Of a stretch of 64,000 nucleotides of DNA, positions 3,793 through 52,285 are shown piece after piece. Position 1 is the stretch's first letter. Every line of letters starts with the position of its first letter. The notes under the pieces are model-generated. The model was not told the origin of the DNA. It saw only the letters and a list, made by a program, of their open reading frames with translations, and ran no database searches. The stretch spans positions 6,626,501 to 6,690,500 of the forward strand of contig NZ_CP036298.1 of the NCBI RefSeq assembly GCF_007752135.1, given 5' to 3'. The position numbers were made by a program, and so were the translations under genes. This DNA comes from Aureliella helgolandensis (GTDB lineage Bacteria > Planctomycetota > Planctomycetia > Pirellulales > Pirellulaceae).

Positions 3793-3812
3793 AATGAACT
3801 CGCCTGATTCAC

Positions 3813-23687: not shown

Positions 23688-25241
23688 CACTGCTGCGACT
23701 TGTCGTAGCTTTCTTGCCCCGCAACCAAACGCCTTCAGCCCAGACAAAGTAACTCCCCTGGCCGCCTGCTTCTCAGTAAGTCTCAGTAAGAAAGAGCCCG
23801 AAAGAAAACTCTCGGCTGCACCCAAACACCTGCTCGGTGGACTAACCACACCAGCCCCAATCACCACTCCAAAGCGACGACCAGTCATCGCACTCCACAT
23901 ATGGACTGCTGCGACTCGTCGTAGCTTTCTTGCCCGGCAACCAAACGCCTTCAGCCCAGACAAAGTAACTCCCCTGGCCGCCCGATTCTCAGTAAGTCTC
24001 AGCCAGAAAGAGCTCGGAAGAAAACTCTCGGCCGCACAAAACACCAGCTCGGTGGACTACCCCCACCAGCCCTAATCACCACTCCAAAGCGACGACAAGT
24101 CGTCGCACTCCACATATGGACTGCTGCGACTCGTCGTAGCTTTCTTGCCCGGCAACCAAACGCCTTCAGCCCAGACAAAGTAACTCCCCTGGCCGCCCGA
24201 TTCTCAGTAAGTCTCAGTCAGAAAGAGCACGGAAGAAAACTCTCGGCTGCACAAAAGCAGCTGCTCGGTGGACTAACCACACCAGCCCCAACCACCACTC
24301 CAAAGCGACGACAAGTCGTCGCACTCCACATATGGACTGCTGCGACTCGTCGCAGCTTTCTTGCCCGGCAACCAAACGCCTTCAGCTCGAACCCAATGCC
24401 TCCCCAGGCCGCCCGATTCTCAGTAAATCTCAGCCAGAAAGAGCTCGGAAGAAAACTCTCCGCTGCACAAAAACAGCTGCTCGGTGGACTACCCCCATCA
24501 GCCCCAATCACCAATCCAAAGCGACGACAAGTCATCGCACTCCACATATGGACTGCTGCGACTTGTCGTAGCTTTCTTGCCCCGCAACCAAACGCCTTCT
24601 GCCCAGACAAAGTAACTCCCCTGGCCACCTGATTCTCAGTAAATCTCAGCCAGAAAGAGCTCGGAAGAAAACTCTCGGCTGCACAAAAGCAGCTGCTCGG
24701 TGGACTAACCACACCAGCCCCAATCACCAATCCAAAGCGACGACAAGTCATCGCACTCCACATATGGACTGCTGCGACTCGTCGCAGCTTTCTTGCCCCG
24801 CAACCAAACGCCTTCAGCCCAGACAAAGTAACTCCCCTGGCCGCCCGATTCTCAGTAAGTCTCAGCCAGAAAGAGCTCGGAAGAAAACTCTCGGCTACAC
24901 AAAAGCAGCTGCTCGGTGGACTAACCACACCAGCCCCAACCACCACTCCAAAGCGACGACCAGTCGTCGCACTCCACATATGGACTGCTGCGACTCGTCG
25001 TAGCTTTCTTGCCCCGCAACCAAACGCCTTCAGCTCGAACCCAATGCCTCCCCAGGCCGCCCGATTCTCAAGAAGTCTCAGTAAGAAAGAGCCCGAAAGA
25101 AAACTCTCGGCTGCACAAAAGCAGCTGCTCGGTGGACTAACCACACCAGCCCCAATCACCACTCCAAAGCGACGACAAGTCATCGCACTCCACATATGGA
25201 CTGCTGCGACTCGTCGTAGCTTTCTTGCCCCGCAACCAAAC
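23688..25241 (+). repeat. Tandem repeat array 1: seven 215-216 bp units plus a partial unit
   Basis: Units begin GGACTGCTGCGACTYGTCG at 23903, 24118, 24334, 24550, 24766, 24982 and 25198. A slightly different first unit begins at 23688. Each unit carries hairpin H2 (GCTGCGAC-TY-GTCGYAGC), a small TTGC/GCAA hairpin, about 100 bp of more variable sequence, a GCTCGGTGG block and hairpin H1 (GCGACGAC-NA-GTCRTCGC). The period is a multiple of three, so long minus-strand frames (for example 24218-25195) run through it. They look like by-products of the repeat. The array lies between the convergent lyase and LEPR-XLL genes. Confidence 0.9.
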
Positions 25242-25436
25242 AGTTGAACTCCCTGGTTGCACCTTCAGATTAGGGCATTCCATGCAAACGTTTGCGACGA
25301 TCTTGTCGGCGACAGTACACCAGGGCAGTCGGCACGTTACCAGGACCATCGATTCGCAAACTCGACGAGCTTGCGAAAGGTTGCTGGAAGTGGAGTCAGG
25401 TCAGCGGCTCGCATGACGTACCGGTCGTGGGAGCCG

Positions 25437-28400
25437 TTAAGCACTCAATTGGTCGCCGGCTAGCAGCGCGAGCACCTCTTCGAGTTCTAGGCTCGATTCA
25501 ATCGTGTCTGCAGAATCGCCCAGACTGGGACCATTCACTTTGGAACGGCTCATGCGTGTGAAGAACGAATCGACCGTTGCGCTTTTGAATTCCGATTCGC
25601 TGCTTCCCTCAACTGCTTGCACGCGAGACTCTAGCGGCACTTCCGGAACTAGTTCCACGTCCGCTTGCGAGCTGGCGATGCTCATCATGGGCACTGCCAT
25701 CAAGCTAGCTGTAGCGGCAGATCCGACGATACGAACGTTATCGACGTTAGCATCTTCGCTCGAGCTGCTGACATAGCTGCGGAAGCGAATCTTCAATTCC
25801 GATGAATTGTACGGCCCCAAGTCAACGCTCTCGGAGTGCCAGGAATTCTCAGCATCGACGTTGCCACGCAATTGCCTGACGTTCTGGGTCCAGCTCGCTC
25901 CGCCGTTGGTGGATACGTCGAGCGACAGATACTCCCCCCTGTCAAAGCCGCGTTCGATCAGCCAGTCGAAAGTCAGCTCCGCAGATGCGTATCCACTGAT
26001 ATCGATCGGCGCTGATGTCGTGAGTGTCGCATTGGTAGCTCGACCATCGACTTCCGCACTGCGAACGCCAGCGGTCGATCGCTGGGTGGAACGGAAGAAA
26101 TCGTTTTGGGAATCCTCGCCCCATTTGCCGTTCCAGTCGTTGCTGTTGCTGCCGACCTCGAACGAGTCTTCAAACAGCACTGCTTCAGTGGGAGCTTCTA
26201 GGACCGTCACCAAGATCGTGTCGCTGGCCGTCGCTCCACCGTTGTCGGTCACGGTCAATGTCAGCATGTGGGTACCGATCGACAGGTTGGGAGAAATCGT
26301 CGCCGTGTTGCCCAGCGTGGTTGTTCCTTCGGTCCATTGGTAGGCAGCGATCGTTCCATCGTTGTCATTACCAGAGCCAACAAGCGTCACCGCTTGACTG
26401 CCTGAGTTGTCGGCATCGAAGACGTTTTGATCGCCCCCCGCGTTGGCAGTGGGGCCTTGATTCGCATGGATGGTGACCACCAAGCTATCGCTGGCGGTGG
26501 CCCCATCATTGTCGGTCACGATGAGAGTCAACGTGTGGACTCCCACACTCAGATTCGGCGTAATGCTCGCTGCGTTCCCCAGGACTGTGGTACCTTCTCT
26601 CCACTGGTAGCTGACGATCGAGCCGTCACTGTCCGAGCCGCTGCCATTGAGGTTCACGGATTGGTCGCTGGTGTTGTCACCGTCACTGATGGTTTGATCG
26701 ATCCCCGCACTGGCGGTAGGCAGTACGTTGGCAAAGTCATTGTCCACAATCGTGCCGATCCCCGTGCCATCGGTGATTGTCGAGCCAACAGCATTGCTGA
26801 GCGTAACGGCAAACGTCTCGTCGCCTTCGACATCGGAATCATTTAGCGTCGAGACGATAATCGTCCGAGACGTGGAACCGGGCTCGAAAGTAAGAGTACC
26901 ACTGGTTGCAGCATAATCGTTGCCGGCTGTCGCCGTGGCATTGGCTGTGGAGAAGGCGACGGAAACGGGGCTCGCGGAAGGAGACGACAGGCTGACGGTG
27001 AAGACCGCCTGGGAGGCCGCGCCATAACGCAACACTTCGTCGGTATTTCGGCTACTTACGTAAAGGTTGCCGTCGGCATCGAAAAGCAAGCCGAGCGGGT
27101 AATCAAGGCCACCACTGCCGCCGCTTACATAGGATTCGATGAGTGCTCCACTCGTTCCGTCATAGCGAAGGACACTGTCGCCACCGGCTCTACCTACATA
27201 GAGGTCTCCACCAGGCCCAAACACCAAGCCGATGGCATCATTGATGCCTCCTGTTTCGTGGCCGGCGGTCACGAATACGTCGATAAACGCGCCAGTCGTA
27301 CCGTCGTAGCGCAACACCAATCCGTCTTCAAGCGGGTCTGTGTTCGGGCTAGTGACATAGAGGTTTCCGTCGGGGCCGAAAACCAATCCGTGTGGATTAT
27401 CCAGACCACCACTGCCAGGCAAGACAAACGTGTCCCTGAATGCCCCGGTTGTCCCGTCATAACGCAAAACTTGATCGGTGTCGCGACTGGACACGTAGAG
27501 CTCGCCATCAGGACCGAAGGCTAAATCAATCGGATTGACCATGCCACCGCTGCCGGCGGTCACGAACGAATCGATGAACGCCCCGGTCGCGCCGTTGTAG
27601 CGGAGCACTTCATCGGTCAGACGACTGGTCACATAGAGGTTGCCATCGGGACCGAAAACTAATCCATGTGGATTAGCCAAGCCACCGCTGCCAGACAGGA
27701 CGAACGCATTGCCGAACTCCCCAGTCGCGACGTCGTAACGCAGAATGGAATCCGAAATTTTGCTAGCTACGTATAGGTTGCCATCGGGACCGAACACCAT
27801 GCCGCCTGGAGTATCCAGGCCGGCATTGCCTGCCGAGACGACGGCATCGATCAACTGGATGCTCTCGTCACCTTCCACCACACTTACGGCGTCGATCGAG
27901 ATGAAACTCTCGTCGTTGAGGATCGTCCCCTGCCCCCTGTCATCCACTATCGTTGCCCCCACCGCACCGGAAAGGTTGACGAACAGACTCTCATGGGCCT
28001 CGACAACCGTATCGCCGTTGACGGCAATCGCAATCGTCTGCAGTGTGTCCCCAGGACCAAAGGCTATTTGACCGGCGCTGCCCAGAAAATCGCTACCGGC
28101 CGTTGCCGTGCCGTTCGCAGTGGCCCAGTCTACCGTCGTCGTGCCGGAGGTATCGCCCTGCCGCATCACTGTAAACACCAGATCTACCGGACCAGCGTTT
28201 CCTTCGATCACTTCAGTATTGCCAACTGCAATGGTCGTGCTCGTATCAGCAAGAGCGCGATAATCCCAATTGAGGATATCATGACTTTGTGCTCCTCCTC
28301 CTGAAACTCCTGTAAATCCAACCCATGCCGTACCAACATTTAAGTCCAACGAATGCGCAAGATCGACCGCCACCGTCAGTGCCGGAGTACTAAGGTCGTC

Positions 28401-30590
28401 CAGAAAGACCGACATCGTGCCAGGCTGGTAGACGACCTTCACCTGATGAACATTTCCGTCATTGATGTCAAAGGCTGGAGTTACCGTACCGAGCGAAGCC
28501 GACTCCAGATTGCTGTTGGGTGCGATGCCCAGCGTATGGATCCCGACATGGTTATTGTTGGGATCATTCGTTTCGCTGTTTTGAAAGGTATCAAACTCGA
28601 TAGCCAGACTGTTGGGAACGCCCTTGTAACCGAGGCCACTGCCAGCACCACCCAGTGCGTCAACACCGGAATTTTGAATTACAAACGCAAATCCATCGGA
28701 GCCGCTACCGTTAGTTTGAAACTCAAAAGTTGTCTCAAAACCCACTGCAACCAGCTGAGGCGTGGCGTACCAACCGGCCCCCTGTTGGCTGGTCAGCTGC
28801 GGTGTCAGGCGCAGAGAATTGTATGCGCCAACGGGAGCGGCCGCGGCGCCCACGAGATTCAAACCGACCGGGGCGCTGAAGTCGAGATAGGCAATGGTCG
28901 GCGTATTGTCGTCGTCCTGGATCGTGCCTTGACCGATTCCATCGACGATGGTGGCGTCCGTCGCATTCGAGAGATTGACCACAAACAATTCGTCGGACTC
29001 AATCGTCGTGTCACCGTTGACCGGCACCGTGATCGTCTTGGAAAGCTCACCAGGGGCGAACGTAATTGTTCCGCTTGTCACCCCATAATCGCTGCTGGAA
29101 TTCGCCGTAACGTCGGCCGTGGAGAACTCGACTGTGGAGGTTCCTGACGTATTACCACTGCGGGCGACGGTGAACACAAGTCCGCTGGTCCCGCTATCTC
29201 CCTCCGCTAGCTGCACATCGTTGATGGCCAGTTCCGAACTGGCTAGCATGCCTTCCATCTTAACATTGTCGACGAAACCGTCTTCGCGGCTGCTGCTGAC
29301 TTTGGAACGAAAACGCAACTGAAAATCGGAAACGAGGTAGCTGCCGTCGATGGAGACCGTTTCGTTGTGCCAGCTATTTTCCTGATCGACGTTTCCCTTG
29401 AGCGACGCCACTTCGTTCCAGCTGTTGCCGTCATACAGATCCAACGCGATGTATTCGCCACGATCAAAGCTGCTTTCGATGTACCACGAAAACGTCAGTT
29501 CGGCGCTGCCATAACCAGTCAGGTCCAGCGGGTTGGCCTGGCTCAGCGTAGCGTTGGAAGCGGAGCCGTCGATTTCGGCGGCATACAATCCATCAGCGGC
29601 GCGCTGTGTAGTGCGAGCCCAATCGTTCTGACTGTCTTCGACCCAGTTTCCGTTCCACTCGCCCTGTTCAAAGCTGTCGCCGAAAAGGGTTACCGGATCG
29701 CCTGGCATGCGTGGACCAAGGCTGAGTACAAACGCGTCCGCGAATCCTGGATTGGTGTGGTTGGCCGTGTTGATCGGATCGGGGGCGAAGTCGCTCGTGG
29801 TGCTACTGCTGGTCCCAATCACCAGCAGATTGCCGTTGGAGTCCGTTTGAACATCCGGAGACAGTTCGTTTCCAGTTCCTCCAATTAGCAGCGCAGAAAA
29901 TGGTGTGCCACTGTTGTCCGTTGGGCCACTGACCAAAAATTCACCTACGCCAGGATCAAGATCGATGTCGCCACGGAATCCGCCCGACACAACCAACTCG
30001 CCTGTCGCCGTGCTTGAGACTCTCGCGTTGCTGTACGCGTCACCTGGAAGCAAATGCGACCAAAGTTCGCTTCCCGCAGAGTCAAACTGTCTGATATCAG
30101 TCCCCATGGACTGAGGCAGTGTTGATTCGGAATTCAACTTGGCAGCGCCGGTGACGAAAGCTTGGCCCTGCTCACTGACGACTAAGCCACTTGAGCTAGT
30201 TTCTTCAACTCCTTCACAGGATTGGCCCCACTGGAAGGTTCCGCTCGAATCCAGCTTGGCTACGAATCCATCACTTGCCCCCTGGCTGTAAACGGTGAAC
30301 GGACCGAAGTCAGCTTGATCATTGAATCCACCGGGGATGGCGTTGTCCAAATCAAAGTCCGTTTCCCCCAACATGGAGCCAACCCTATACGTGTTCCCTG
30401 CCGCGTCAACAGCTGCGGACTGTGGAAAAACGCTATGGTCGTCGCCTCCAGCCAATACCACGGAATCGAAAAGGAGTCCCGCCAACAACCGTCGATCTTC
30501 CAGCGACTCCAGGCGAAGCCGCAGACGAGCTCGTAACTTATTTCGGCGCGGTGACTTCTTTTTGCGGCTAACGCGGCTCGACTGGGACAT
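25437..30590 (-). CDS. Giant LEPR-XLL secreted protein with Calx-beta, lectin, propeller and PKD domains
   Basis: This 1717-residue surface or secreted protein has a basic N-terminus and LESLEDRRLLAG (residues 27-38), the LEPR-XLL motif of large planctomycete extracellular proteins. By position: SBBP-like propeller repeats (about 40-295), a MAM-like beta domain (302-455), Calx-beta 1 (457-567), an L-type lectin domain (571-784), Calx-beta 2 (786-896), a third Calx-beta interrupted by six NHL-type repeats of about 46 residues (914-1192), two PKD domains (1288-1464), a second MAM-like domain (1468-1619) and an acidic tail. AGGA precedes the start. Adhesion or glycan binding is inferred from the domains. 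It shares an upstream element with the kinase gene. Confidence 0.85.
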   Translation of the reverse strand: MSQSSRVSRKKKSPRRNKLRARLRLRLESLEDRRLLAGLLFDSVVLAGGDDHSVFPQSAAVDAAGNTYRVGSMLGETDFDLDNAIPGGFNDQADFGPFTVYSQGASDGFVAKLDSSGTFQWGQSCEGVEETSSSGLVVSEQGQAFVTGAAKLNSESTLPQSMGTDIRQFDSAGSELWSHLLPGDAYSNARVSSTATGELVVSGGFRGDIDLDPGVGEFLVSGPTDNSGTPFSALLIGGTGNELSPDVQTDSNGNLLVIGTSSSTTSDFAPDPINTANHTNPGFADAFVLSLGPRMPGDPVTLFGDSFEQGEWNGNWVEDSQNDWARTTQRAADGLYAAEIDGSASNATLSQANPLDLTGYGSAELTFSWYIESSFDRGEYIALDLYDGNSWNEVASLKGNVDQENSWHNETVSIDGSYLVSDFQLRFRSKVSSSREDGFVDNVKMEGMLASSELAINDVQLAEGDSGTSGLVFTVARSGNTSGTSTVEFSTADVTANSSSDYGVTSGTITFAPGELSKTITVPVNGDTTIESDELFVVNLSNATDATIVDGIGQGTIQDDDNTPTIAYLDFSAPVGLNLVGAAAAPVGAYNSLRLTPQLTSQQGAGWYATPQLVAVGFETTFEFQTNGSGSDGFAFVIQNSGVDALGGAGSGLGYKGVPNSLAIEFDTFQNSETNDPNNNHVGIHTLGIAPNSNLESASLGTVTPAFDINDGNVHQVKVVYQPGTMSVFLDDLSTPALTVAVDLAHSLDLNVGTAWVGFTGVSGGGAQSHDILNWDYRALADTSTTIAVGNTEVIEGNAGPVDLVFTVMRQGDTSGTTTVDWATANGTATAGSDFLGSAGQIAFGPGDTLQTIAIAVNGDTVVEAHESLFVNLSGAVGATIVDDRGQGTILNDESFISIDAVSVVEGDESIQLIDAVVSAGNAGLDTPGGMVFGPDGNLYVASKISDSILRYDVATGEFGNAFVLSGSGGLANPHGLVFGPDGNLYVTSRLTDEVLRYNGATGAFIDSFVTAGSGGMVNPIDLAFGPDGELYVSSRDTDQVLRYDGTTGAFRDTFVLPGSGGLDNPHGLVFGPDGNLYVTSPNTDPLEDGLVLRYDGTTGAFIDVFVTAGHETGGINDAIGLVFGPGGDLYVGRAGGDSVLRYDGTSGALIESYVSGGSGGLDYPLGLLFDADGNLYVSSRNTDEVLRYGAASQAVFTVSLSSPSASPVSVAFSTANATATAGNDYAATSGTLTFEPGSTSRTIIVSTLNDSDVEGDETFAVTLSNAVGSTITDGTGIGTIVDNDFANVLPTASAGIDQTISDGDNTSDQSVNLNGSGSDSDGSIVSYQWREGTTVLGNAASITPNLSVGVHTLTLIVTDNDGATASDSLVVTIHANQGPTANAGGDQNVFDADNSGSQAVTLVGSGNDNDGTIAAYQWTEGTTTLGNTATISPNLSIGTHMLTLTVTDNGGATASDTILVTVLEAPTEAVLFEDSFEVGSNSNDWNGKWGEDSQNDFFRSTQRSTAGVRSAEVDGRATNATLTTSAPIDISGYASAELTFDWLIERGFDRGEYLSLDVSTNGGASWTQNVRQLRGNVDAENSWHSESVDLGPYNSSELKIRFRSYVSSSSEDANVDNVRIVGSAATASLMAVPMMSIASSQADVELVPEVPLESRVQAVEGSSESEFKSATVDSFFTRMSRSKVNGPSLGDSADTIESSLELEEVLALLAGDQLSA

Positions 30591-30650
30591 GGCTGAGTTC
30601 CTAAATTCAGTGAGAGGGGCAGTTGGGAAGCCCAGCGGAGGGCCTGGGCT

Positions 30651-30694
30651 CTACTCATCAATGCGAGAGTTAACCTGCGAACCTCTAACGAAAT
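30651..30694 (-). promoter_or_regulatory. Shared upstream element, copy A (before LEPR-XLL gene)
   Basis: A 22-bp block (TACTCATCAATGCGAGAGTTA in its core) is followed by a 9-nt spacer and CCTCTAACGAA. The same arrangement occurs at 34290-34331 with one mismatch in the blocks. It lies 61-104 bp upstream of the LEPR-XLL start. It may be a promoter or operator, perhaps for the ECF sigma factor nearby. Confidence 0.55.
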
Positions 30695-30833
30695 GGTAGA
30701 ATTCTGGAATAAGTCCCAATCAAGCTCATGCGCTTGAGCGCGAGTTCGGCTAGGGCAGTGTGAGCGAAATAGCGTAGTTACGCTCAACTGAGAGTGGGAA
30801 TACCACCGTCTGGCGACAGTAGCTACAGTGCAC

Positions 30834-34235: not shown

Positions 34236-34289
34236 GATCCCATGCTCCTTGGTTTGAACAATGCAAGCTCGACGCACAGTGGGCGGCGT

Positions 34290-34332
34290 CTACGCATCAA
34301 TGCGAGAGTTAGTGCCCAAGCCTCTAACGAAC
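34290..34332 (-). promoter_or_regulatory. Shared upstream element, copy B (before kinase gene)
   Basis: This is the same two-block element as 30651-30694 (one mismatch in the blocks, same 9-nt spacer). It lies 55-97 bp upstream of the preferred kinase start, in the same orientation and nearly the same distance as in copy A. Confidence 0.55.
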
Positions 34333-34369
34333 TAGGGATTTTTTTCTGAAGGATTTTCCAGCGTTGCAG

Positions 34370-34942: not shown

Positions 34943-35065
34943 CGCCGCATTGTAGCCCACCCAGGCCGAGATTGCTCCCCATAAAAGGGAACCCAGCAAT
35001 TAACGCATGCCAGCACGAGGTAACCTCCTCCGACTCCTCCCAAGATGCATCGATTTCCCCACACC

Positions 35066-35758
35066 GCCATCACCACTCCAAAGCGACGACGAGTCATCGC
35101 ACTCCACATATGGACTGCTGCGACTCGTCGTAGCTTACTTGCCCCGCAACCAAATGCCTACTGCTCGAACCAAATGACTCCCCTGGCCACCTGATTCTCA
35201 GTAAATCTCAGCCAGAAAGAGCACGGAAGAAAACTCTTGGCTGCATAAAAACACCTGCTCGGTGGACTAACCACACCAGCCCCAATCACCACTCCAAAGC
35301 GACGACAAGTCGTCGCACTCCCAATATGGACTGCTGCGACTCGTCGTAGCTTTCTTGCCCCGCAACCCAATGCCTACTGCTCGAACCCAATGCCTCCCCT
35401 GGCCGCCTGATTCTCAGTAAATCTCAGCCAGAAAGAGCTCGGAAGAAAACTCCCAGCTGCCCCCAAACACCAGCTCGGTGGACTAACCACACCAGCCCCA
35501 ATCACCACTCCAAAGCGACGACAAGTAGTCGCACTCCAAATATGGACTGCTGCGACTTGTCGTAGCTTTCTTGCCCCGCAACCAAATGCCTACTGCTCAG
35601 ACCAAATGACTCCCCTGGCCGCTTGCTTCTCAATCAGTCTCAGCCAGAAAGAGCCCGGAAGAAAACTCTCGGCTGCCCCCAAGCACCCGCTCGGTGGCCT
35701 AACCACCCCCCACCAAATCACCACTCCAAAGCGACAACGAGTCATCACTTTCCCAAGT
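35066..35758 (+). repeat. Tandem repeat array 2: three 216-bp units
   Basis: H2 units begin at 35112, 35328 and 35544, preceded and followed by H1 hairpins (last one GCGACAAC-GA-GTCATCAC near 35731-35748). The sequence is close to array 1 and has the same orientation. The right edge lies 42 bp from the 3' end of the SDR gene and the left edge about 120 bp upstream of the sigma factor start. Confidence 0.9.
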
Positions 35759-35799
35759 GAATCCTACGATGGATTGAGGTGGTGCTGAACCAAGGTGGA

Positions 35800-36606: not shown

Positions 36607-36671
36607 CTCGGCTCCGATTTTGAGTTCAAACTACCACCATGCTAGATACCCACGGAAATGCCCCGGCATTG

Positions 36672-38126: not shown

Positions 38127-38214
38127 GGTTCATCCCTCTGAAGATTCATACAGCTAAAGGTAGCCTGTTGCCGTCGGAGCAAGCCAGCACGACGGCCTCC
38201 TGCAAGCCACTCGT

Positions 38215-39606: not shown

Positions 39607-39765
39607 TAGGTAGCTCTACGTTCTTGAGATACGGTATTTAAAAACAAATTGGATTAAGTTAAGTATCGTTCATTGCGACAATGAGCTTCGCAGCATAGGC
39701 GCATGCCAAAGCCCTCTGCCCAATGCCAGCGACGACATGAGCAGCCCAGCAACCGGCAGACGGAG

Positions 39766-40500
39766 TTCCGCAAAAAGTCATTCCGCTACCCCCTCAACAC
39801 CTGCTCGGTGGATTAACCACACGCCCCCATACCACGACTCCAAAGCGATAACGAGTTATCGCACTCCATATAGGGACTGCTGCGACTTGTCGTAGCTTTT
39901 TTGTTCGGCAACCAAACGACTCTTGCACCCACCGACAGTCGACCCACCAAGCCTACGGCCCTGCAATTCAGAGGCCTGGAAAAAGTCATTCCGCTGCCCC
40001 CAAACACCTGCTCGGTGGATTAACCACACGCCCCCATACCACGACTCCAAAGCGATAACGAGTTATCGCACTCCATATGTGGACTGCTGCGACTTGTCGT
40101 AGCTTTCTTGCCCCGCAACCAAACGACTCTTGCACCCACCGACAGTCGACCCACCACGTCTACGGCCCTGCAAGGCAGAGCCCGCAAAAAGTCATTCCGC
40201 TACCCCCAAGCACCTGCTCGGTGGATTAACCACACTCCCCCATACCACGACTCCAAAGCGATAACGAGTTATCGCACTCCATATGTGGACTGCTGCGACT
40301 TGTCGTAGCTTTTTTGTTCGGCAACCAAACGACTCTTGCACCCACCGCCAGTCGACCCACCACGCCTACGGCCCTGCAACTCAGAGCCCCGGAAAAAGTC
40401 ATTCCGCTGTCCCAAACACCTGCTCGGTGGATTAACCACTCTTCTCCCAAACATCACTCCAAAGCGACAACGCGTTATCGCACTCCACATAGGGACTGTA
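39766..40500 (+). repeat. Tandem repeat array 3: about three 206-bp units
   Basis: H2 blocks begin at 39874, 40081 and 40287, with a broken one at 40493. H1 here reads GCGATAAC-GA-GTTATCGC, still a perfect 8-bp stem but with two base pairs changed on both sides relative to array 1. The region between the hairpins differs in sequence from array 1. The right edge lies 18 bp from the 3' end of the deacylase gene. Confidence 0.9.
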
Positions 40501-40517
40501 CTCCATGGGCACCGGAC

Positions 40518-43367: not shown

Positions 43368-43511
43368 CGTAGAATTCCCAACGGAAGGATCAAAAGAGGC
43401 GAAAGGGCAGGGGGATGACAGGGGACAAGCCACGGGAAACAGGCATATTTTGCAAGCCAGTCACGTCGATGAGGCAGGACGAACGATTCGGTCACACAGG
43501 TGCACGGACTT

Positions 43512-43624
43512 AGGACCTTCGGAACAATAAGTGTCGCCAGATCGCTCCGCCGATCGGCCTTTTCCCCAACGAACCGGCGGAGCGGTTCGGCGACTATCCG
43601 CCATTAATTGTTCCGACGGTCCTT
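43512..43624. repeat. Palindromic dispersed repeat, copy 2 (MITE-like, 113 bp)
   Basis: The ends are near-perfect 17-bp inverted repeats (AGGACCTTCGGAACAAT at the left, one mismatch at the right). Inside are two hairpins with loops CTCCGC and GCGGAG, the second being GAACCG-GCGGAG-CGGTTC. It matches 11865-11976 and encodes nothing. Confidence 0.75.
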
Positions 43625-43636
43625 AGCATGCACGAT

Positions 43637-44779: not shown

Positions 44780-44866
44780 GGGAATTCCGATCATGAAAAA
44801 AGGCGTAGTTGAATTCCGCGTGGGACGGCGCGCGTGGGAAGGCGAGAGTTGTCTCCAGGGCGAGGG

Positions 44867-45628
44867 CTAGTCAAAAACCAGCGTACCGAACTTTTTGAAT
44901 TCGTGAAAACTTGGCCCAACACGTGCCCAATCCCAGGCAGTTTCCTGGTCGTTATCATAATCAACGCGATAGAAGTTTGCGCGCCAGCGGGTTCCAGCGA
45001 CCGGCGGAACGTTGTCGAGTGGTTCGAGCAATGCGTAGGGAATGAAAACCTCCGCGCGCCAACCGCTTACTTTCGCCATTGATTCATTGCTACCGCCACT
45101 AGCCGAAACCTTTTTTTGAATCTTGCGATCTCCCTCGTAATGCCAAGGACGCCAGCCCAGGAAGCGTCCTTCCAAGTTGGGGATCAGGATGGGCAACTCG
45201 AATCCAAGTGGCGAGATTTCATATTCGAAGTAGACCGAGTGTTTTTCGCTGGTCCAAAAGAAGCATTCGAATACGTCTTCGTTCCACAAATCAAGAAAAT
45301 CCTCCTGCATCGTGGCCGTCAGTTTCTGGTCACTCCCATCAAAGAGAACGTAGACTCCCGTGGAGGAATACAGCATTTTAAAACGCGCCGAGTAGTCATG
45401 CTTGCCTCCAGGCCGACGCCGCAGGTCGACCCAATCAGCAGCCTGCCAAGCCGTCGCATCTCCTTTGCCCGTTATGGAAAAATCCTCGCAGCTTTTAACT
45501 TTCAAACTTGGCGAAGCCTCATCGGCTGCCCCCGCAACATTGCTCAGCAGGCCGGCAGTTAGGAGACATGCGCACATCCCCAATCGATAAAAACTCGAGT
45601 TCTTTTTCGTCGACTTGGTTTGACTCAT
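44867..45628 (-). CDS. Secreted CBM9-like carbohydrate-binding protein
   Basis: This 253-residue protein has a signal peptide (LGMCACLLTAGLLSNVAGAA) and a GGGAGC ribosome binding site. The single beta-sandwich domain fits family 9-like carbohydrate-binding modules: GDATAWQAADWVDL, RFKMLYSSTGVYVLFDGSD, LWNEDVFECFFW, YFEYEISP and WRAEVFIPYALL. Such stand-alone modules are common in planctomycetes and probably bind sugars outside the cell. With the amidohydrolase downstream and the symporter gene divergent on the other side, it may serve uptake or processing of a sugar-containing compound. No enzyme activity is expected. Confidence 0.8.
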   Translation of the reverse strand: MSQTKSTKKNSSFYRLGMCACLLTAGLLSNVAGAADEASPSLKVKSCEDFSITGKGDATAWQAADWVDLRRRPGGKHDYSARFKMLYSSTGVYVLFDGSDQKLTATMQEDFLDLWNEDVFECFFWTSEKHSVYFEYEISPLGFELPILIPNLEGRFLGWRPWHYEGDRKIQKKVSASGGSNESMAKVSGWRAEVFIPYALLEPLDNVPPVAGTRWRANFYRVDYDNDQETAWDWARVGPSFHEFKKFGTLVFD

Positions 45629-45958
45629 GCGAGTGCTCCCTAGCTGTATCTAATTGGTTGAAAGTGATCTTAGGTTTTGATAGAAGTGCAACTTGGGCAT
45701 GGGCCTACTGGTCCAAACACAAGGGGCGATAGGCAGACTCCCTCGCAGTCATTGCCAGGAAGCGCGGTGGTCGCATTGCGTCGTGGGTCCCCGTCCGATG
45801 CATGGACTGCCACGCGAATTGACGACTGCGTAGAGCTTACCCAAGAAGTTTGTGCCAATGGGGCACCGGTCCAGTGGAAGCCCAGCATTTCTGGTATTCT
45901 GTTCCAACCTGCCCACAATTCTCTGCATTCTCAACTCCCCGTTTAAAAATATTTGAAG
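45629..45958. other. Divergent spacer between CBM9 and symporter genes
   Basis: About 330 bp with no supported gene. It should contain two divergent promoters, which I cannot place with confidence. Confidence 0.4.
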
Positions 45959-47626
45959 ATGCTCGTTGCTGCCAGCCTACTGACGATTCCCGACTACATT
46001 GTGATCGGGCTGTATTTGCTCGGCACCGTTCTTTTTGGCTTCGCCATTGGCATGCGTCTCAAGACCGGTACAGACTTTTTTCTGGGAGGGCGGCAGCTAC
46101 CATGGTGGGCGATCGGCATGTCCTTAGTGGCCACCGATATCGGCGGTACAGACATCATCGGGGTAGGGGGAGCCGCCTACACCTATGGCTTGGCAGTCTC
46201 CAATTTCGAATGGATCGGATGTGTTCCGGCCATGATTCTCGGGGCCTTTATCTTCATCCCCTTCCTGTACCGCACGGGTGTGAACACAATCCCCGAATTC
46301 TTGGAGCGACGCTACAACGCCGGGGTGCGCTCGGTAATTGCAATCTGCTGGTTGCTGTTCATGGCTTGCAACTTAGGCATCATGCTGCTCGCTTCGGCGA
46401 AAATGATGTCAGCGGTTTTTGGTTGGGATGAAACGGTCTGCATCCTCGTCACCGCAGTCCTCGTGGGAGGCTACACCCTGGTGGGCGGCCTAGCTGCGGT
46501 CGTGTACACAGACATGGTTCAGTGTGCTGTGATGATTCTTGGGTGCTTGACCATCCTAGTTTTAGGATTGATTGAAGTGGGTGGAATCGGCGAGCTGCAG
46601 TCGAGGCTACGAGATGCACGCGAGCGGCAAGCAAGTGAAGCAAGTAGCCCGTTGGCAGTGGAATCAGCGCAAGTGGAGCAGACGAGCGACGACCAGTCGC
46701 AAGACGATCCGATGAAGCTGATTTTACCGGTCGACACGCGCACGCCATTTCCATGGCCGGGCATCTATTTTGGCTTGGCGTTGATCCTCAGTCCCGCCTA
46801 CTGGATTGGCAATCAAGCGATCGTGCAGCGGGCTCTGGGGGCGCGGAGCGAATTTGAAGCCAAAGCGTCCTATGTCTGGGGAGCTGTCCTCAAGAACGTG
46901 ATTCCTTTGATCGTCGCCGTTCCAGGGCTGATCGCAATTGCCCTATTGCCCGATCTTCCAGACGGCGATTCCGCCATCCCCAGTCTAGTTGGAGTCCTGT
47001 TGCCGGTTGGCGTGCGGGGATTGTTCGTCGCGGCATTCTTAGCCGCCCTGATGTCAAGTATCGATTCGTACCTCAACTCGGCCGCGACCATCGTCTCGTA
47101 CGATCTCTACAAACGATTCCTCCACCCGCAGGTCACCGACGAAAGATTGCTGTTCGTGGGACGAGCAACCACGCTGGCCTTAGTGATGTGGGCCGTCGCT
47201 TTTGCCTTCCTGCTGACCACGATGAGCGAGAACTCGGGGATCTACGGCATCTTCCAAACCTTGATGGCATTTTTCCAAGGTCCCGCGTTCGCCGTTTTAC
47301 TGCTCGGCATCCTATGGCGGCGGGCAACCGGCATGGCTGCCCTGGTGGGACTCCTCTGCGGCATCCTCACCTCGATCACCCTCTATGCCCTGAACCAACC
47401 GCTGGTCTACCAGGCACTTGGCTGGGAACCACTCTTCAAAATCCAGGAACCGTTCCTGTACTTCTCAATTTGGGCATTCCTGGTAACCGCCCTGGTCCTG
47501 GCCGTACTCAGTCTGCTCGGTCGCCCCAACACGGCCGCACAACTCGCTTGCGTAGTGCAATGGCGTTCCTCCCCCGAACGTCCGGCCAAAGGCGATCGAT
47601 CCCCTCAGGAAGGAGTTGCCCAATGA
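45959..47626 (+). CDS. Sodium:solute symporter (SSS family)
   Basis: The ATG at 45959 gives 555 residues; a TTG two codons upstream is possible. There are about 13 hydrophobic helices. DFFLGGRQLPWWAIGMSLVA and TDIIGVGGAAYTYG match the first helices of sodium/solute symporters. GGLAAVVYTDMVQ (helix 5) and FVAAFLAALMSSIDSYLNSA (the helix 8 sodium-site serines) are also typical. A hydrophilic Gln/Ser-rich loop (about 215-265) is an insertion. It imports a solute, probably a sugar or organic acid, with Na+. The stop codon overlaps the start of the following small gene (ATGA). Confidence 0.9.
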   Translation: MLVAASLLTIPDYIVIGLYLLGTVLFGFAIGMRLKTGTDFFLGGRQLPWWAIGMSLVATDIGGTDIIGVGGAAYTYGLAVSNFEWIGCVPAMILGAFIFIPFLYRTGVNTIPEFLERRYNAGVRSVIAICWLLFMACNLGIMLLASAKMMSAVFGWDETVCILVTAVLVGGYTLVGGLAAVVYTDMVQCAVMILGCLTILVLGLIEVGGIGELQSRLRDARERQASEASSPLAVESAQVEQTSDDQSQDDPMKLILPVDTRTPFPWPGIYFGLALILSPAYWIGNQAIVQRALGARSEFEAKASYVWGAVLKNVIPLIVAVPGLIAIALLPDLPDGDSAIPSLVGVLLPVGVRGLFVAAFLAALMSSIDSYLNSAATIVSYDLYKRFLHPQVTDERLLFVGRATTLALVMWAVAFAFLLTTMSENSGIYGIFQTLMAFFQGPAFAVLLLGILWRRATGMAALVGLLCGILTSITLYALNQPLVYQALGWEPLFKIQEPFLYFSIWAFLVTALVLAVLSLLGRPNTAAQLACVVQWRSSPERPAKGDRSPQEGVAQ

Positions 47627-47856
47627 CACCTTTGCATTCCTTCGGAGAGTTCCTGCGTCAGACACTGATGCTCGTTCCGCTGTCTTGGGTCCGAGTTCTG
47701 TTCGTGGGGAGCCTAATTCTGTTGCTAATCTGGGTTCTGTGTTTGCCGAAATCGGTAACAACTCCCCCCGAAGGCACCCAGCGTTGGGATGCAAACCTCA
47801 AACTGAGTGCCGCGCTGGCACTTGTTATTCAAATATTGATCTATGCCATGTTGTAG
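47623..47856 (+). CDS. 77-residue membrane protein overlapping the symporter gene
   Basis: This small gene starts at ATG 47623, within the ATGA overlap with the symporter stop, after AGGAAGGAG. The product has two hydrophobic helices (VRVLFVGSLILLLIWVLCLP and AALALVIQILIYAML) separated by a polar loop with Pro and Trp. No family is recognised. The overlap and strong ribosome binding site show translational coupling, so it may be a small accessory subunit or stabiliser of the symporter. That role is inferred from position only. Confidence 0.7.
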   Translation: MTPLHSFGEFLRQTLMLVPLSWVRVLFVGSLILLLIWVLCLPKSVTTPPEGTQRWDANLKLSAALALVIQILIYAML

Positions 47857-47931
47857 AGCGTTACGGTTTTGGACGGGATGCACTAAGATTGCAGGTGCCT
47901 TACGTCATTCCGTCCTAGAAGCTCACGAAGC

Positions 47932-49728
47932 ATGAAACATATCCGTAATTTCTGTATTATTGCACACATTGACCACGGTAAGTCAACGTTGGCAGATCGT
48001 CTGATCCAGGCTTGCGGCGGAGTTACGCAGCGGGATTTCCACGATCAAATGCTCGATTCTATGGATATCGAGCGTGAACGTGGAATCACGATTAAGAGCA
48101 ATACCGTTACGCTAGCGTATAAGACCGCCGACGGGCAGGAATACCTGCTGAATCTGATCGACACACCCGGTCACGTCGATTTTTCCCACGAAGTGCGCCG
48201 CTCGCTGATGGCCTGCGAAGGTGCCTTGATCGTGGTCGATGCGTCGCAGGGAGTCGAGGCGCAGACGGTTGCCAACCTCTACCTAGCCCTCGAATACGAC
48301 CTGACCCTGCTGCCAGTCATCAATAAAATTGACCTGCCTGCCGCCGATGTTGATCGTGTGCGCGAGGAAATCGACTCCGACCTCGGCCTCGATCCGTTTG
48401 CCGCCATCCCGGTCTCCGCCAAAACAGGTGTGGGCATCGACAAAGTGCTCGCCGGCATCGTCGACCACTTGCCGCCTCCCAAGGGGGATCCCAACGCACC
48501 GCTCAAAGCCCTCGTGTTCGACGCGCACTTCGACAAATTCCGAGGGGTGATTTTGCAGTGCCGGGTTATGGAGGGTACCCTCAAGCCGCGCGATGTCATC
48601 CACTTCATGCACTCCGACCATGACTACAAAGTCGATGAATTGGGATACAACCAATTCAAGCTGGTCCCCAAACCCCAACTCAGCGCGGGTGAAGTGGGCT
48701 ACATCGTCGCCGGGGTCAAGAGTGTTCAAGACATCGAGATCGGCGATACGATCACACTCCTAGACAACCCAGCTAGCGAGCCGATTCCCGGTTACCAAGA
48801 AGCCAAGCAAGTGGTCTTCTCCTCGGTCTATCCGATGAGTACCGATGAGTACCCGGATCTGGCCAAAGCGCTCGACAAACTGGCGATCAACGACGCGGCA
48901 CTGACGTACGAGAAAGACAGCTCCGCCGCTCTTGGATTCGGGTTCCGCTGCGGCTTCTTAGGCCTGCTCCACCTGGATGTGGTCCAAGAGCGTCTCCAGC
49001 GTGAATTCAACCTCGGCTTGGTCATCTCCGCCCCCTCGGTCCAGTACTGCCTCACGTTGAAAGACGAGTCCACGCTCAACGTCGACAATCCCAGCAATTG
49101 GCCCGACCCGTCCAATATTGAATCCGCAACCGAACCGTACATCAAAGCGACGATTATCATCCCCGAAGAGTTCGTGGGCCCGGTCATGGAGCTCTGTCGC
49201 GAACATCGTTCGGAGAGTCAAACGATGAACTACCTCACCGCGGATCGTGTGGAGATTACGAGCGAAATGCCGCTCGGCGAAGTCTTGTTCGAGTTCTACG
49301 GCAAGCTGAAGATGATTACTCGCGGTTACGGCTCGTTCGATTATACGCCGATCGAATACCGGCCAACCGATGTGGTGAAAGTCGACATTTTGGTCAACAA
49401 GGAACCGGTGGATGCATTTTCCTATCTAGTCCATCGCGACAAGGCTCGCACGCGGGCCTTGCACTACTGCGAGCAACTCGCGGAAGCCATCCCGCGTCAC
49501 CAATTTAAGATCCCCATTCAGGGAGCCATTGGTGGTTCAATCATTGCCCGTGCCACCATCCAGCCCTACCGCAAGGATGTGACCGCCAAACTCTACGGTG
49601 GAGACGTCACGCGGAAGAAAAAGCTGCTGGAGAAGCAGAAGAAGGGCAAGGCTAAGATGAAGCAGTTCGGCAGCGTAAACATCCCTCAAGAAGCGTTCGT
49701 CTCTGTCCTGCGAGCAGAAAAAGACTAG
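47932..49728 (+). CDS. lepA: Elongation factor 4 (LepA), back-translocating ribosomal GTPase
   Basis: A 598-residue protein of standard LepA length. The GTPase domain has IIAHIDHGKSTLADRL (G1), RERGITIKSNTV (G2), LIDTPGHVDF (G3), NKIDLP (G4) and VSAKTGVG (G5). LepA hallmarks are RCGFLGLLHLDVVQERL and the C-terminal end KLYGGDVTRKKKLLEKQKKG followed by MKQFGSVNIPQEAF. It binds stalled ribosomes and promotes correct translocation or assembly under stress. The stop codon TAG lies inside the target-site sequence of the IS1380 insertion, and the gene remains intact. Confidence 0.97.
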   Translation: MKHIRNFCIIAHIDHGKSTLADRLIQACGGVTQRDFHDQMLDSMDIERERGITIKSNTVTLAYKTADGQEYLLNLIDTPGHVDFSHEVRRSLMACEGALIVVDASQGVEAQTVANLYLALEYDLTLLPVINKIDLPAADVDRVREEIDSDLGLDPFAAIPVSAKTGVGIDKVLAGIVDHLPPPKGDPNAPLKALVFDAHFDKFRGVILQCRVMEGTLKPRDVIHFMHSDHDYKVDELGYNQFKLVPKPQLSAGEVGYIVAGVKSVQDIEIGDTITLLDNPASEPIPGYQEAKQVVFSSVYPMSTDEYPDLAKALDKLAINDAALTYEKDSSAALGFGFRCGFLGLLHLDVVQERLQREFNLGLVISAPSVQYCLTLKDESTLNVDNPSNWPDPSNIESATEPYIKATIIIPEEFVGPVMELCREHRSESQTMNYLTADRVEITSEMPLGEVLFEFYGKLKMITRGYGSFDYTPIEYRPTDVVKVDILVNKEPVDAFSYLVHRDKARTRALHYCEQLAEAIPRHQFKIPIQGAIGGSIIARATIQPYRKDVTAKLYGGDVTRKKKLLEKQKKGKAKMKQFGSVNIPQEAFVSVLRAEKD

Positions 49729-49729
49729 T

Positions 49730-51570
49730 CCTTAAATAAGTATATGCCGGATGTGTTTTGGGCAGTTGGTGGAGGCGCAGCGGCGATCTGCTGGCGGGAC
49801 CAGCGGGGGATTTTTCGGTCGTGAATTTCAGGCATCGGTCGGTCAGGTGCCCTGCGGGCGGTTTGAGGCTGGCGGCGGTACTGAGGCTTACATACCTCAG
49901 CTTCGTGATTTCGGCACTCACTCAAGCGCGAAGCGAACCCAGCGATTGAACACATGCAGAGATTCGCTCCATGACAACAGACGGACCACCAACTGCCGTC
50001 CACTGCGAACGATCTGTGCCGGAAGTCGCACGAACTGTTCTACGAATTGTTTGAACTCCATGCGGATCACAGCCCGACCTTCTTGCTTGTGTTGCTCACG
50101 CCAGCGTCCGTTTATCGGAACGCTCAATCCGATCCACGCTTTCAAGTTCCACGACAGGGCCGTCATCACCATGTAAGCCCAATTCGATTCCAGGTTGTCC
50201 ACCGGCGCGTGGAGCGCCCGGCACTGATTTAACTGAGCCAAGATGTTCTCTTGGTCACAGCGATCGTTGCTGGCATACACAACGTCATTGGTGCTGAGCA
50301 CATCGCCCGCTTCGTTGGTCAGGTAGAAGAAGTACAGACAGTCGTCGAACAATCGACCCTGCTTGGTGACTTCTAGTTCTTTGCAAAGGATCACTAAGCG
50401 GTAGGTCTCTTTGCAATCGGTGGGGCTGTAAGGAACCTCGGTGACCCACTCTGAAGTCAGACGCTTGTTGGGGTAGCCACGCAGCTGGACAATCTGTTCT
50501 TTCACGTTCTCAGGACGGTCTCGGTCAGGTGTATTCGGGGCGTATTTGGGCGAGCGAGGCAACTGCTTCCAAGCGTCAATTTGCACGTTTTCCGCGATAT
50601 CGACGAGTCCCGGGTAGGCCTTCATGCCAAAGGTGAACTTCACGCCTGCCCGGTGCCAGCGGTCCAGATGAATCGTTTGAGTGAACGCGGTGTCGCCTCG
50701 CAGAACGATTCGGCGAAAGCCTGCCTGGCGACAAAGCGAGATCGCCGTGTCGGCTTGCTCGGCTGCGCCTTCTTGGCTGGGACGATTGCCGCTACGGTTG
50801 ACCAGGCGTAAAGCTTCGCCCGTTTCGGCCAACGTTATCACCAACGGATGGTAACCCCAGATGCCTTTGTAGCTGATGTCCATTCCCTCTTTGCACTGAC
50901 CGGTTGTTTCGACGATCGTGCCATCCATCTCGATGGTCGCTTGATCGAAGAACGCATTGTCTTGTTGTTGCCAGATATCCAAGCGAACTTGATCGAAGGC
51001 ATCTTGCAAACGATTAATATGATAGGGATCGAATCGGCGACAGAAGTCTCCTGCGGTGGTTGGATCGGGGATCCTTTCGGCTCCGATCGAATCGAGAAAT
51101 GACTCATCGTTGCGGCGCAGTTCAATGTCCTCCAAGCAAGTTCCTCCGCAGAGCGCGTTATAAGCCAAATTCAAAACATGATCGGATTCATGATAGGGGC
51201 GATGGATTTTGAACAAGTGCAAGGCATCGTCGATCCGTTTCGGCAGTCCGATCTTCTTTGCGAATCGATGGATGGCGGCGACGCCCCCGTAGGCGGTCCC
51301 GCCTGCTTTTTGTGCCAGCTCATACGCAATCTTGTCCCCTTTGAGCATGGGGTGTCCGCGATCGTGAGCAGCCGAATTCTGTAACCTGTTCTTGATACGT
51401 CGTTTGCGTTTTCGAATCAAATCTGCTTTAATCGTCTTCACTCGAAATCTCCATCGTGGTTAGCGAGCGGCTTGTTGGGCTGGTGAAAAAAGACCAACAA
51501 ACTGCAGGATATTTCGAGTTTTTTTATGCGCAAATGCTCCGCCAAGCAAGTGGAGTACGCTTGTTTAAGG
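49730..51570. mobile_element. IS1380-family insertion sequence, complete
   Basis: The ends are inverted repeats CCTTAAATAAG (49730-49740) and CTTGTTTAAGG (51560-51570), with one mismatch. They are flanked by ACTAGT on both sides (49724-49729 and 51571-51576). Because ACTAGT is palindromic, the true duplication could instead be the inner 4-bp CTAG with the ends one base longer. The element is about 1.84 kb and carries one intact transposase gene. Insertion happened at the lepA stop codon, which the duplication preserves. Confidence 0.85.
49918..51441 (-). CDS. IS1380-family DDE transposase
   Basis: The 507-residue protein is full length for IS1380. The first 70 residues are basic and helical. 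FFDQATIEMDGTIVE (about 168-182) carries the first catalytic Asp, RRIVLRGDTAFTQ (about 243-255) the second, and the Glu is expected in the ESNWAYMVMTALSWNLKAWI region, matching the Y-(2)-R-(3)-E-(6)-K-like area of DDE_Tnp_1. No frameshift is seen, and the terminal repeats and target duplication are intact, so it may be active. It is transcribed towards lepA. Confidence 0.9.
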   Translation of the reverse strand: MKTIKADLIRKRKRRIKNRLQNSAAHDRGHPMLKGDKIAYELAQKAGGTAYGGVAAIHRFAKKIGLPKRIDDALHLFKIHRPYHESDHVLNLAYNALCGGTCLEDIELRRNDESFLDSIGAERIPDPTTAGDFCRRFDPYHINRLQDAFDQVRLDIWQQQDNAFFDQATIEMDGTIVETTGQCKEGMDISYKGIWGYHPLVITLAETGEALRLVNRSGNRPSQEGAAEQADTAISLCRQAGFRRIVLRGDTAFTQTIHLDRWHRAGVKFTFGMKAYPGLVDIAENVQIDAWKQLPRSPKYAPNTPDRDRPENVKEQIVQLRGYPNKRLTSEWVTEVPYSPTDCKETYRLVILCKELEVTKQGRLFDDCLYFFYLTNEAGDVLSTNDVVYASNDRCDQENILAQLNQCRALHAPVDNLESNWAYMVMTALSWNLKAWIGLSVPINGRWREQHKQEGRAVIRMEFKQFVEQFVRLPAQIVRSGRQLVVRLLSWSESLHVFNRWVRFALE

Positions 51571-51588
51571 ACTAGTGCAACGCTTCGT

Positions 51589-52285
51589 GGACTGCTGCGA
51601 CTCGTCGCAGCTTTCTTGCCCCGCAACCAAACGACTGCAGACCAAAGCAAGCGACTCCCCAGCCCTCTAGCCTCCCAGCACTCCCAAGCCCGGAAGAACA
51701 CTACCAGCTGCCCCCAAGCACCCGCTCGGTGGCCTAACAACCCCCCACCAAATCACCACTCCAAAGCGACGACAAGTCATCGCACTCCACATTTGGACTG
51801 CTGCGACTCGTCGTAGCTTTCTTGCCCCGCAACCAAACGACTGCAGACCAGACAAAGTGACTCCCCAGCCCTCTAGCTTCCCAGCACTCCCAAGCCCGGA
51901 AAAACACTACCAGCTGCCCCCAAGCACCCGCTCGGTGGCCTAACAACCCCCACCACATCACCACTCCAAAGCGACGACAAGTCATCGCACTCCACATATG
52001 GACTGCTGCGACTCGTCGTAGCTTTCTTGCCCCGCAACCAAACGTATTCTGCCCAGACCCAAACGTATTCTGCCCAGACAAAGTGACTCCCCTGGCCGCC
52101 TGATTCTCAGTAAGTCTTAGTGAGAAAGAGCCCGGAAGAAAACTCTCGGCAGCTCCCAAGCACCCGCTCGGTGGCCTAACAACCCCCACCACATCACCAC
52201 TCCAAAGCGACGACAAGTCATCGCACTCCACATTTGGACTGCTGCGACTTGTCGCAGCTTTCTTGCCCGGCAACCAAACGGCTCC
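51589..52285 (+). repeat. Tandem repeat array 4: three units of 205-236 bp plus a partial unit
   Basis: H2 blocks begin at 51589, 51795, 52000 and 52236. The third unit is longer because a short block around 52042-52078 is duplicated in tandem. H1 is GCGACGAC-AA-GTCATCGC in all units. Before the IS1380 insertion the array lay about 12 bp after the lepA stop, and it ends about 20 bp from the convergent DUF808 stop. Confidence 0.9.

Follow-up and report, generated by a model that had tools for sequence, protein, structure and literature searches.

Tandem REPIN arrays with a GGAG/GGAC tag in Aureliella helgolandensis and an associated transposase gene split by IS1380

A 64,000-nucleotide stretch of the planctomycete Aureliella helgolandensis (the window; G000:C1:6626501-6690500 of an 8.44-Mb single-contig genome) carries four intergenic arrays of a tandem repeat with paired hairpins, termed H1 and H2. 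The repeating unit is a REPIN, that is, a doublet of inverted repetitive extragenic palindromic (REP) hairpins, and these hairpins bear a conserved GGAG or GGAC tag. The same hairpins accompany genes for a REP-associated tyrosine transposase (RAYT), an HUH nuclease with one catalytic tyrosine, and the RAYT gene of A. helgolandensis itself is split by an IS1380-family element. We consider it probable (about 86%) that the arrays are tandem REPINs copied or moved by a RAYT that reads GGAG/GGAC hairpins, that they were amplified in place and that their cognate RAYT is now split. Provisionally, the arrays belong to a known kind (REP, REPIN and the bacterial interspersed mosaic element, BIME, of type 2), and what is new is the tag.

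Repeat units and their hairpins

Tandem Repeats Finder places array 1 at 23689-25241 (216 bp x 7.2, 92% match), array 2 at 35069-35743 (216 bp x 3.1), array 3 at 39768-40498 (206 bp x 3.5) and array 4 at 51588-52044 (206 bp x 2.2); by reading, array 4 continues with an extra unit, bearing a 21-bp internal duplication, to 52285. The order within arrays is H1, a 6-bp junction, H2, a TTGC/GCAA mini-hairpin, a variable stretch and a GCTCGGTGG block. An earlier note, made from the sequence alone, had described these blocks, a period of 206-216 bp and 15-16 cores. Both the program and reading bear this out, and we count 16 H1-H2 junctions by reading (7, 3, 3 and 3 per array). The window contains 18 copies of H2, and 100 shuffles contain none.

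H1 and H2 represent one hairpin in opposite orientations, which reads GGA(G/C)-T-GC[stem-loop-stem]GC-TTT on the tag strand, one unpaired base separating tag from stem. Neighbouring hairpins no more than 400 bp apart were tallied in the window and in nine further stretches of the genome. Tag-to-tag pairs (n=54) are separated by 4 bp (38), 6 bp (15) or 32 bp (1) and tag-outward pairs (n=46) by 115-351 bp, with 3 pairs pointing the same way. Because tag-to-tag and tag-outward pairs alternate, the repeating unit is H2-middle-H1, two inverted REP hairpins around a spacer with their tags outward. These REPINs, mostly 167-230 bp long with a few of 287-403 bp, follow one another head to tail, as do the tandem modules of alternating REPs in BIME-2 and tandem REPIN clusters. 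The 52-bp core, which the earlier note took for the structured centre of amplification, is the joint of 4-6 bp between adjoining REPINs. Local amplification and conserved structured pieces survive from that interpretation, which overall is partly supported.

Constraint appears to act on the separate hairpins and not on the long dyad. Over 33 distinct own-genome copies the four-helix structure (H1, H2, spacer and mini-hairpin) is paired in 94.6% of cells, whereas one long 52-bp hairpin is paired in 84.3% and has a covariation score that 500 of 500 shuffles reach. The near-symmetrical dyad noted earlier does exist, but on its lower pairing and shuffle-level covariation we reject it as the constrained structure. 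Three pairs of the four-helix structure have changed on both sides, and its covariation score is reached by 3 of 500 shuffles. The H1 stem of array 3, GCGATAACGAGTTATCGC, is altered on both sides with pairing retained.

Comparison across genomes makes a strong case for a real hairpin. A search for the frame GGAGTGC-N14-GCTTT, demanding no pairing inside N14, gave 103 matches against 0.05 expected at 80 protein-fetched loci. Their 37 distinct interiors form the five inner pairs in 96.2% of cells, compared with 68.7% when shuffled. When own and related loci are added, which had been chosen by their REPs and overlap in part, the count rises to 268 matches and 76 interiors, with 95.5% of cells paired against 65.4% shuffled (maximum of 1000 shuffles, 70.0%). 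No Rfam family matches the arrays at gathering score and neither tRNA nor tmRNA was detected. Uniform middles and REP alternation do not suit CRISPR or integron attC, a judgement from general knowledge with no dedicated search run.

Elsewhere in the genome, an H2 search allowing two mismatches finds 79 places against 0 for the reversed-pattern control. At 3-kb clustering these make 22 loci, 7 of them single in that search; one of these, at 8.204 Mb with two mismatches, could be a chance match. Across the genome, arrays have periods of 176, 191, 193, 201, 206 and 216 bp. The middles of 46 units, taken from 13 arrays of the stretches examined, have a mean identity of 0.88 within arrays (78 pairs) and 0.56 between them (957 pairs), in line with the earlier claim that the middle is uniform inside an array and different between arrays. 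In one array (L012) they are mutually identical (1.00 to two decimals). At least one gene 3' end faces 19 of 20 places examined, within 50 bp at 13 of 20, a tally resting on crude open reading frame (ORF) calls with small overlaps included. Each of the four window arrays follows a minus-strand ORF, at 18-196 bp from its stop codon.

The loci are unevenly distributed: 21 of 22 fall in some 42% of the chromosome (5.80-8.20 Mb and 0.11-0.88 Mb), leaving gaps of 2.66 and 2.26 Mb parted by a lone copy at 3.54 Mb.

The associated transposase and its tag

A covariance model of the core, an analysis the earlier note had proposed, was run on 60 related genomes with filters stricter than usual and matched 10 of them, own included. 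Other planctomycetes, Verrucomicrobia and Hydrogenedentes share the frame GGAGTGC-hairpin-GCTTT, and their stems are compensated. In G052, which belongs to another family of the same order, there are 215 REPs (control 1) whose stems differ but are compensated. The exact stem class of A. helgolandensis is rare, since its fixed pattern occurs in only 7 of 294 genomes of the phylum, own included. Several G052 elements (L019, L029, L036, L044, L051 and L052) carry extra hairpins, CCCGGGACTTCAGTCCCGGG-like and GTGAAGGCTTTAGCCTTCAC, outside the REP pair and so form four-hairpin composites. Among the matches listed, the REPs of G052 seem crowded in one part of the chromosome.

The sole Y1_Tnp gene found in G052 lies between REPs of the array type. 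Its protein matched 9 of the 60 genomes at 1e-8, the best outside G052 being G030 (55%) and G004 (42%), and the RAYT genes of both are flanked by GGAG- or GGAC-tagged hairpins. In A. helgolandensis the match falls in two pieces, 7292699-7292983 and 7294810-7295082, within a locus at 7.2925-7.2951 Mb that lies among the same REPs as the arrays. The pieces are ORFs of 173 and 79 amino acids on either side of a 507-amino-acid IS1380 transposase (NF033539, 258 bits), which is identical at 506 of 507 residues to the copy in the window. The two IS1380 elements have 1,856 bp in common at 99.8%, with CTAG on the flanks of both; the window element lies 17 bp from array 4, and the split RAYT with its copy is 0.6 Mb away. 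The first RAYT piece holds the HYH motif and the second the Y-x-H-x-N motif. Both motifs are invariant in 17 aligned homologues; in A. helgolandensis they sit in two ORFs flanking IS1380. In this alignment the conserved W is followed mostly by H or Y, and also by F, Q or W.

Family and fold assignments agree with these motifs. The proteins of G052 (83.0 bits) and G004 (82.4 bits) exceed the cut-off of 80 for NF047646 (REP_Tyr_transpos), and that of G030 stands at the threshold (79.9 bits in one search, 80.3 in another). The own halves, at 36.7 and 29.1 bits, are under the cut-off and match positions 8-88 and 108-146. NF047646 matches over cut-off occur in 57 of 149 genomes of the family; in the own genome there are 15 weaker matches (best 1.3e-12), below cut-off. 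A profile of the 17 RAYT sequences finds PDB 4er8, TnpArep, at 2.6e-9, and an AlphaFold model (predicted local distance difference test 87.5, predicted template-modelling score 0.84) has the same entry as its best fold match (1.8e-9). The seven other Y1 transposase loci of the own genome have no such REP within 1.5 kb and were rejected as mobiliser.

The tag was examined at RAYT relatives, the best 80 of 275 matched loci, which are not mutually independent. Hairpins with perfect stems of at least 6 and loops of 2-6 were scanned in any surroundings, near (up to 300 bp from the gene) and far (beyond 600 bp). GGAG stands at the foot of 90 of 196 near hairpins against 20 of 596 far ones (Fisher 1.8e-43) and is the most enriched foot tetranucleotide; GGAC has 47 of 196 against 15 of 596. 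GTAG (3 of 196 near, 10 of 596 far) and GTGG (0 of 196, 9 of 596) are not enriched. A scan demanding perfect stems of at least 8, in which GGAG had 11 of 25 near and 8 of 79 far hairpins, was too strict and was replaced.

REPs of the strict scan lie within 400 bp of the RAYT gene at 38 of the 80 loci, and their density there (98 in 61.9 kb) is 22.7 times that farther out (24 in 343.6 kb, 12 of the 24 from L171). By record title, strict REPs accompany 27 of 58 verrucomicrobial, 4 of 4 hydrogenedentes, 3 of 4 planctomycete, 1 of 2 lentisphaeral and 3 of 6 other loci. None occurs at 29 other Y1_Tnp loci or at the 7 other own-genome ones. Proximity is seen within A. helgolandensis too: of the 21 other REP loci, 6 are no more than 150 kb away from the RAYT, where 0.75 would be expected (P 7e-5). 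This excess is weaker at wider range, with 7 of 21 within 300 kb (P 4e-4) and 7 of 21 within 500 kb (P 0.008).

Some further elements were seen beside these. L171, a contig of Planctomycetaceae bacterium CSSed11_97R1, has at least 14 REPs in 3.6 kb round a RAYT-like frame with a stop codon inside the matched range. A second RAYT-like gene in the window, at 3042-3812 on the minus strand (NF047646 50.8 bits, below cut-off), is unrelated to the arrays and is flanked by GTGG-tagged hairpins GTGGATCGCTCCGCGATCC at 2902-2922 and 3772-3789. At L002 and L003 (G000:C1:478356-482869), two similar IS200-type transposase genes stand in tandem amid many TCGCGAAGCGA-type repeated hairpins, a separate repeat family. 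The window also holds a 138-bp repeat (x 2.8, 27355-27742) within the gene for a 1717-amino-acid lectin / NHL / Calx-beta protein.

Table 1. Arrays, example hairpins and IS1380 element, in window positions
Feature	Position	Strand	Remarks
Array 1	23688-25241	+	8 H2, 7 H1
Array 1, strict-scan units	23903-24111, 24118-24327, 24334-24543, 24550-24759, 24766-24975, 24982-25191		
Array 1, ends			left, degenerate unit; right, partial unit (H2 and TTGC hairpin)
Example H2 REP	24118-24144	+	tag strand GGAC-T-GCTGCGACTCGTCGTAGC-TTTC
Example H1 REP	24301-24327	-	tag on minus strand, GGAG-T-GCGACGACTTGTCGTCGC-TTTG
Example 6-bp junction	24112-24117	.	ACATAT, between 2 head-to-tail REPINs; midpoint of 52-bp core
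Array 2	35066-35758	+	H1, then 3 H2-middle-H1 units
Array 2, strict-scan unit	35328-35537		only this unit; outer units with degenerate REPs
Array 3	39766-40500	+	partial unit, then REPIN units 39874-40074, 40081-40280, 40287-40486
Array 4	51589-52285	+	REPIN units 51589-51788, 51795-51993, 52000-52229; partial unit at right end
Array 4, last full unit	52000-52229		carries the 21-bp internal duplication
IS1380-family element	49729-51571	-	transposase 49918-51441; CTAG at 49725-49728 and 51572-51575; ends by reading

Origin of the arrays

On the reading that we favour, the REPINs would be non-autonomous elements bounded by two inverted REPs, with GGAG or GGAC 5' of each on its own strand. By analogy with studied RAYTs, the transposase would recognize each REP as a single-stranded hairpin through the 5' tag, cut beside it and copy or move the unit. 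Insertion would often occur just behind a gene's stop codon and preferentially near the RAYT gene itself, where 6 of 21 other loci lie within 150 kb. Terminator-like tails may have let REPs settle behind genes, harmlessly or usefully. Single founder units would then have multiplied in place into head-to-tail arrays, and therefore each array would have its own middle sequence. The cognate RAYT is now split by IS1380 between its HUH part and its tyrosine part. Because this gene is split, the family may now be stranded, provided that no other RAYT serves its REPs. RAYT transposition, amplification by rolling circle or recombination, and present immobility are the parts of this account that we infer.

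Amplification may have another explanation. REPs may have been brought by the RAYT while the host made the tandem arrays, by unequal crossing-over or replication slippage with the transposase uninvolved, and we give this close to an even chance. It suits units that contain non-hairpin middle sequence, arrays that end at different points of the unit, middles that are near identical within arrays (1.00 in L012) and an own RAYT that is now split. Moreover, the stretches of REP-bearing relatives L050, L055, L056 and L057 lack a REPIN-size tandem array. Some arrays, however, end at a tag or a junction (51589, about 40500 and 23688), where a RAYT would cut, and formation of BIMEs by RAYT rolling circle has been proposed in other species (PMC2817692).

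Do the hairpins act in RNA instead? They could be terminators, working from the tag strand in either direction, or mRNA-protecting elements of the 3' untranslated region, selected on the transcript. We think this unlikely as the explanation, and REPs carried in by a RAYT could have acquired such a role secondarily. The positions of the arrays behind minus-strand stop codons and of 19 of 20 places at gene 3' ends are in its favour, as is the TTT behind the stem, part of the conserved frame. In array 1, all 8 H2, with a TTTCTT tail, and 2 H1 are terminator-like on the tag strand (15 sites in the region against 3.0 expected); in array 4 all 4 H2 are, again with TTTCTT (5 sites against 1.0 expected). 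Yet most H1 of these two arrays, which would face the minus-strand genes, are not called terminators, the run of T is both short and broken, and Rfam gives no match. Nor does an RNA role explain GGAG/GGAC at the foot, crowding round RAYT genes or rows of as many as eight copies, and REPs are commonly found behind genes (PMC3733652).

Wobble pairs bear on both readings. A RAYT reading the single-stranded REP with its tag 5' should leave imperfect pairs that are G.T, not A.C, on the tag strand. Counted as locus-level events, which are not independent since one H2 wobble at pair 4 is common to many arrays, there are 21 G.T to 1 A.C (H1 6:1, H2 15:0). The ratio is 10:1 over distinct stems and 59 to 1 over all own-genome copies. 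At the 80 RAYT loci distinct stems give 12 to 3, while G052 (1 to 0) and other relatives (3 to 1) offer too few to tell. In both wobble copies tested the tag strand folds better than its complement. This bias fits a RAYT that reads a single strand. A single transcript does not explain it, because H1 and H2 have their tags on opposite strands of the chromosome; terminators that act in both directions could.

Two further explanations fare worse. The arrays might be kept as chromosomal binding sites for gyrase or a nucleoid protein and homogenised by selection, as with BIME-2 in E. coli, which binds gyrase (PMC2817692). Their size and homogeneity and the confinement of 21 of 22 loci to part of the chromosome are compatible with this, but the arrays vary in middle sequence, in unit length (167-403 bp) and in copy number, and the matching gene of array 4 has no strict REP nearby in five relatives; we regard the idea as quite improbable. 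That the repeats encode a repetitive protein is more improbable still, and we reject it. An ORF of 325 amino acids (24218-25195) does run through array 1, where the frame stays open because 216 bp is divisible by three. The periods of 206, 193, 191 and 176 bp in other arrays are not multiples of three, the ORF has no NCBIfam match, and what is conserved is palindromic, with changes that compensate each other.

A number of observations weigh against the RAYT-driven origin itself. Only 3 of 60 genomes (own, G030 and G052) combine model-detected REPs with a RAYT match at 1e-8. Seven genomes (G007, G009, G010, G013, G021, G023 and G058) have REPs with no RAYT match, and six (G001, G004, G020, G025, G027 and G042) have a RAYT match with no model-detected REPs. 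G004 does have REPs, with another stem that the covariance model missed, and such stems, lost RAYTs and fragmented assemblies, of which there are many among the 60, may contribute to this low co-occurrence. Among the 80 RAYT relatives, 42 have no strict flanking REP, 44 have any GGAG/GGAC hairpin within 300 bp, and the 6 acidobacterial loci have no strict REPs at all. The nearest flanking REPs show no fixed orientation (outward 11, inward 4, same way 9; n=24). H2 copies in the window carry GGAC, which differs from GGAG at the fourth tag base, and altering this base made one studied RAYT lose cleavage and another cut at a shifted site (PMC8266576). Middles are heterogeneous in two exceptional clusters close to the RAYT (0.51 and 0.35). 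Within the genome, covariation is weak, the paired cells of the four-helix structure being matched by 312 of 500 shuffles. The strand bias would also suit terminators, and the tails behind H2 hairpins are terminator-like. The empty-site comparison for array 4, in which five best-match gene loci of relatives have no strict REPs nearby, is weak, orthology and gene order of the five being unproven. No mobility was observed.

We retain as probable the copying or movement by a GGAG/GGAC-reading RAYT followed by amplification in place. A bolder version, in which a RAYT lineage of Planctomycetes, Verrucomicrobia, Hydrogenedentes and Lentisphaerae uses GGAG/GGAC as its guide, made the long arrays by rolling-circle copying and was stranded by IS1380, is tentative, and the odds are somewhat against it.

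Relation to known systems

The earlier note knew of no named family that fits. REP hairpins, REPINs and BIME-2-type tandem clusters linked to RAYTs do fit, so that the element is known in kind. Neither the GGAG/GGAC-tagged family itself nor GGAG-tagged REPs appeared in the literature searched, mainly the main text of freely available papers. Novelty of the tag relative to GTAG/GTGG is provisional to that extent. TnpAREP classes have been surveyed with GT[AG]G tags (PMC6006769) and REPs with GTAG or CGTC (PMC3733652).

The closest parallels in anatomy are the REPINs of Pseudomonas fluorescens SBW25, where two inverted REPs are one mobile unit and tandem clusters of near-identical REPINs, flanking sequence included, occur beside RAYT genes (PMC3116915). 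They differ in REP sequence and tag. Here up to 8 H2 occur per array, the RAYT is split and the units are longer, 167-403 bp, whereas SBW25 doublets peak at 71 and 110 bp between neighbours (PMC3116915). The BIME-2 of E. coli and the BIMEs of Stenotrophomonas likewise have regularly spaced alternating REPs in tandem modules, with a RAYT gene adjoining the BIME and REP copies near the RAYT; the GGAG/GGAC tag, the phylum and the 4-6 bp tag-to-tag junction set the present arrays apart (PMC2817692).

The GTAG and CGTC super-families also comprise tagged short hairpins, dimers with stem-differing partners and sites between or behind genes (PMC3733652). Neither accommodates the arrays. The window tags are GGAG and GGAC, with G as second base, unlike GTAG, GTGG and the variants GYAG, GYRG, GTRG and GTMG (PMC3733652); the CGTC super-family has the tag CGTC and no associated transposase, whereas a RAYT is associated here. 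Among transposases, subclass 2.8 of TnpAREP shares HYH, Y-x-H-x-N and the residue after the conserved W, mostly H or Y, a likeness of motifs (PMC6006769). That subclass is from Cyanobacteria and has long GT[AG]G-tagged REPs (PMC6006769), in contrast to the GGAG/GGAC REPs of planctomycetes, Verrucomicrobia and others. E. coli TnpAREP (PDB 4er8), the best sequence-profile and fold match of the RAYT clade, has 23% identity in the structural match, and its REP differs in having a bulged stem and a GTAG tag. It reads the single-stranded REP and not its complement, the tag bases mattering for cutting (PMC8266576), and the wobble bias suggests the same single-strand reading here.

The finding gives a named mechanism for extensive, regular arrays with the appearance of unexplained structured DNA. 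It also suggests a REP guide tag other than GTAG/GTGG, the set by which REPs are defined in the literature consulted, with named relatives for testing it. A. helgolandensis is a genome in which the REPs are kept and the matching transposase is split, which lets one ask whether arrays still change without a RAYT. If a GGAG/GGAC RAYT lineage does exist, it would escape searches keyed to GTAG/GTGG.

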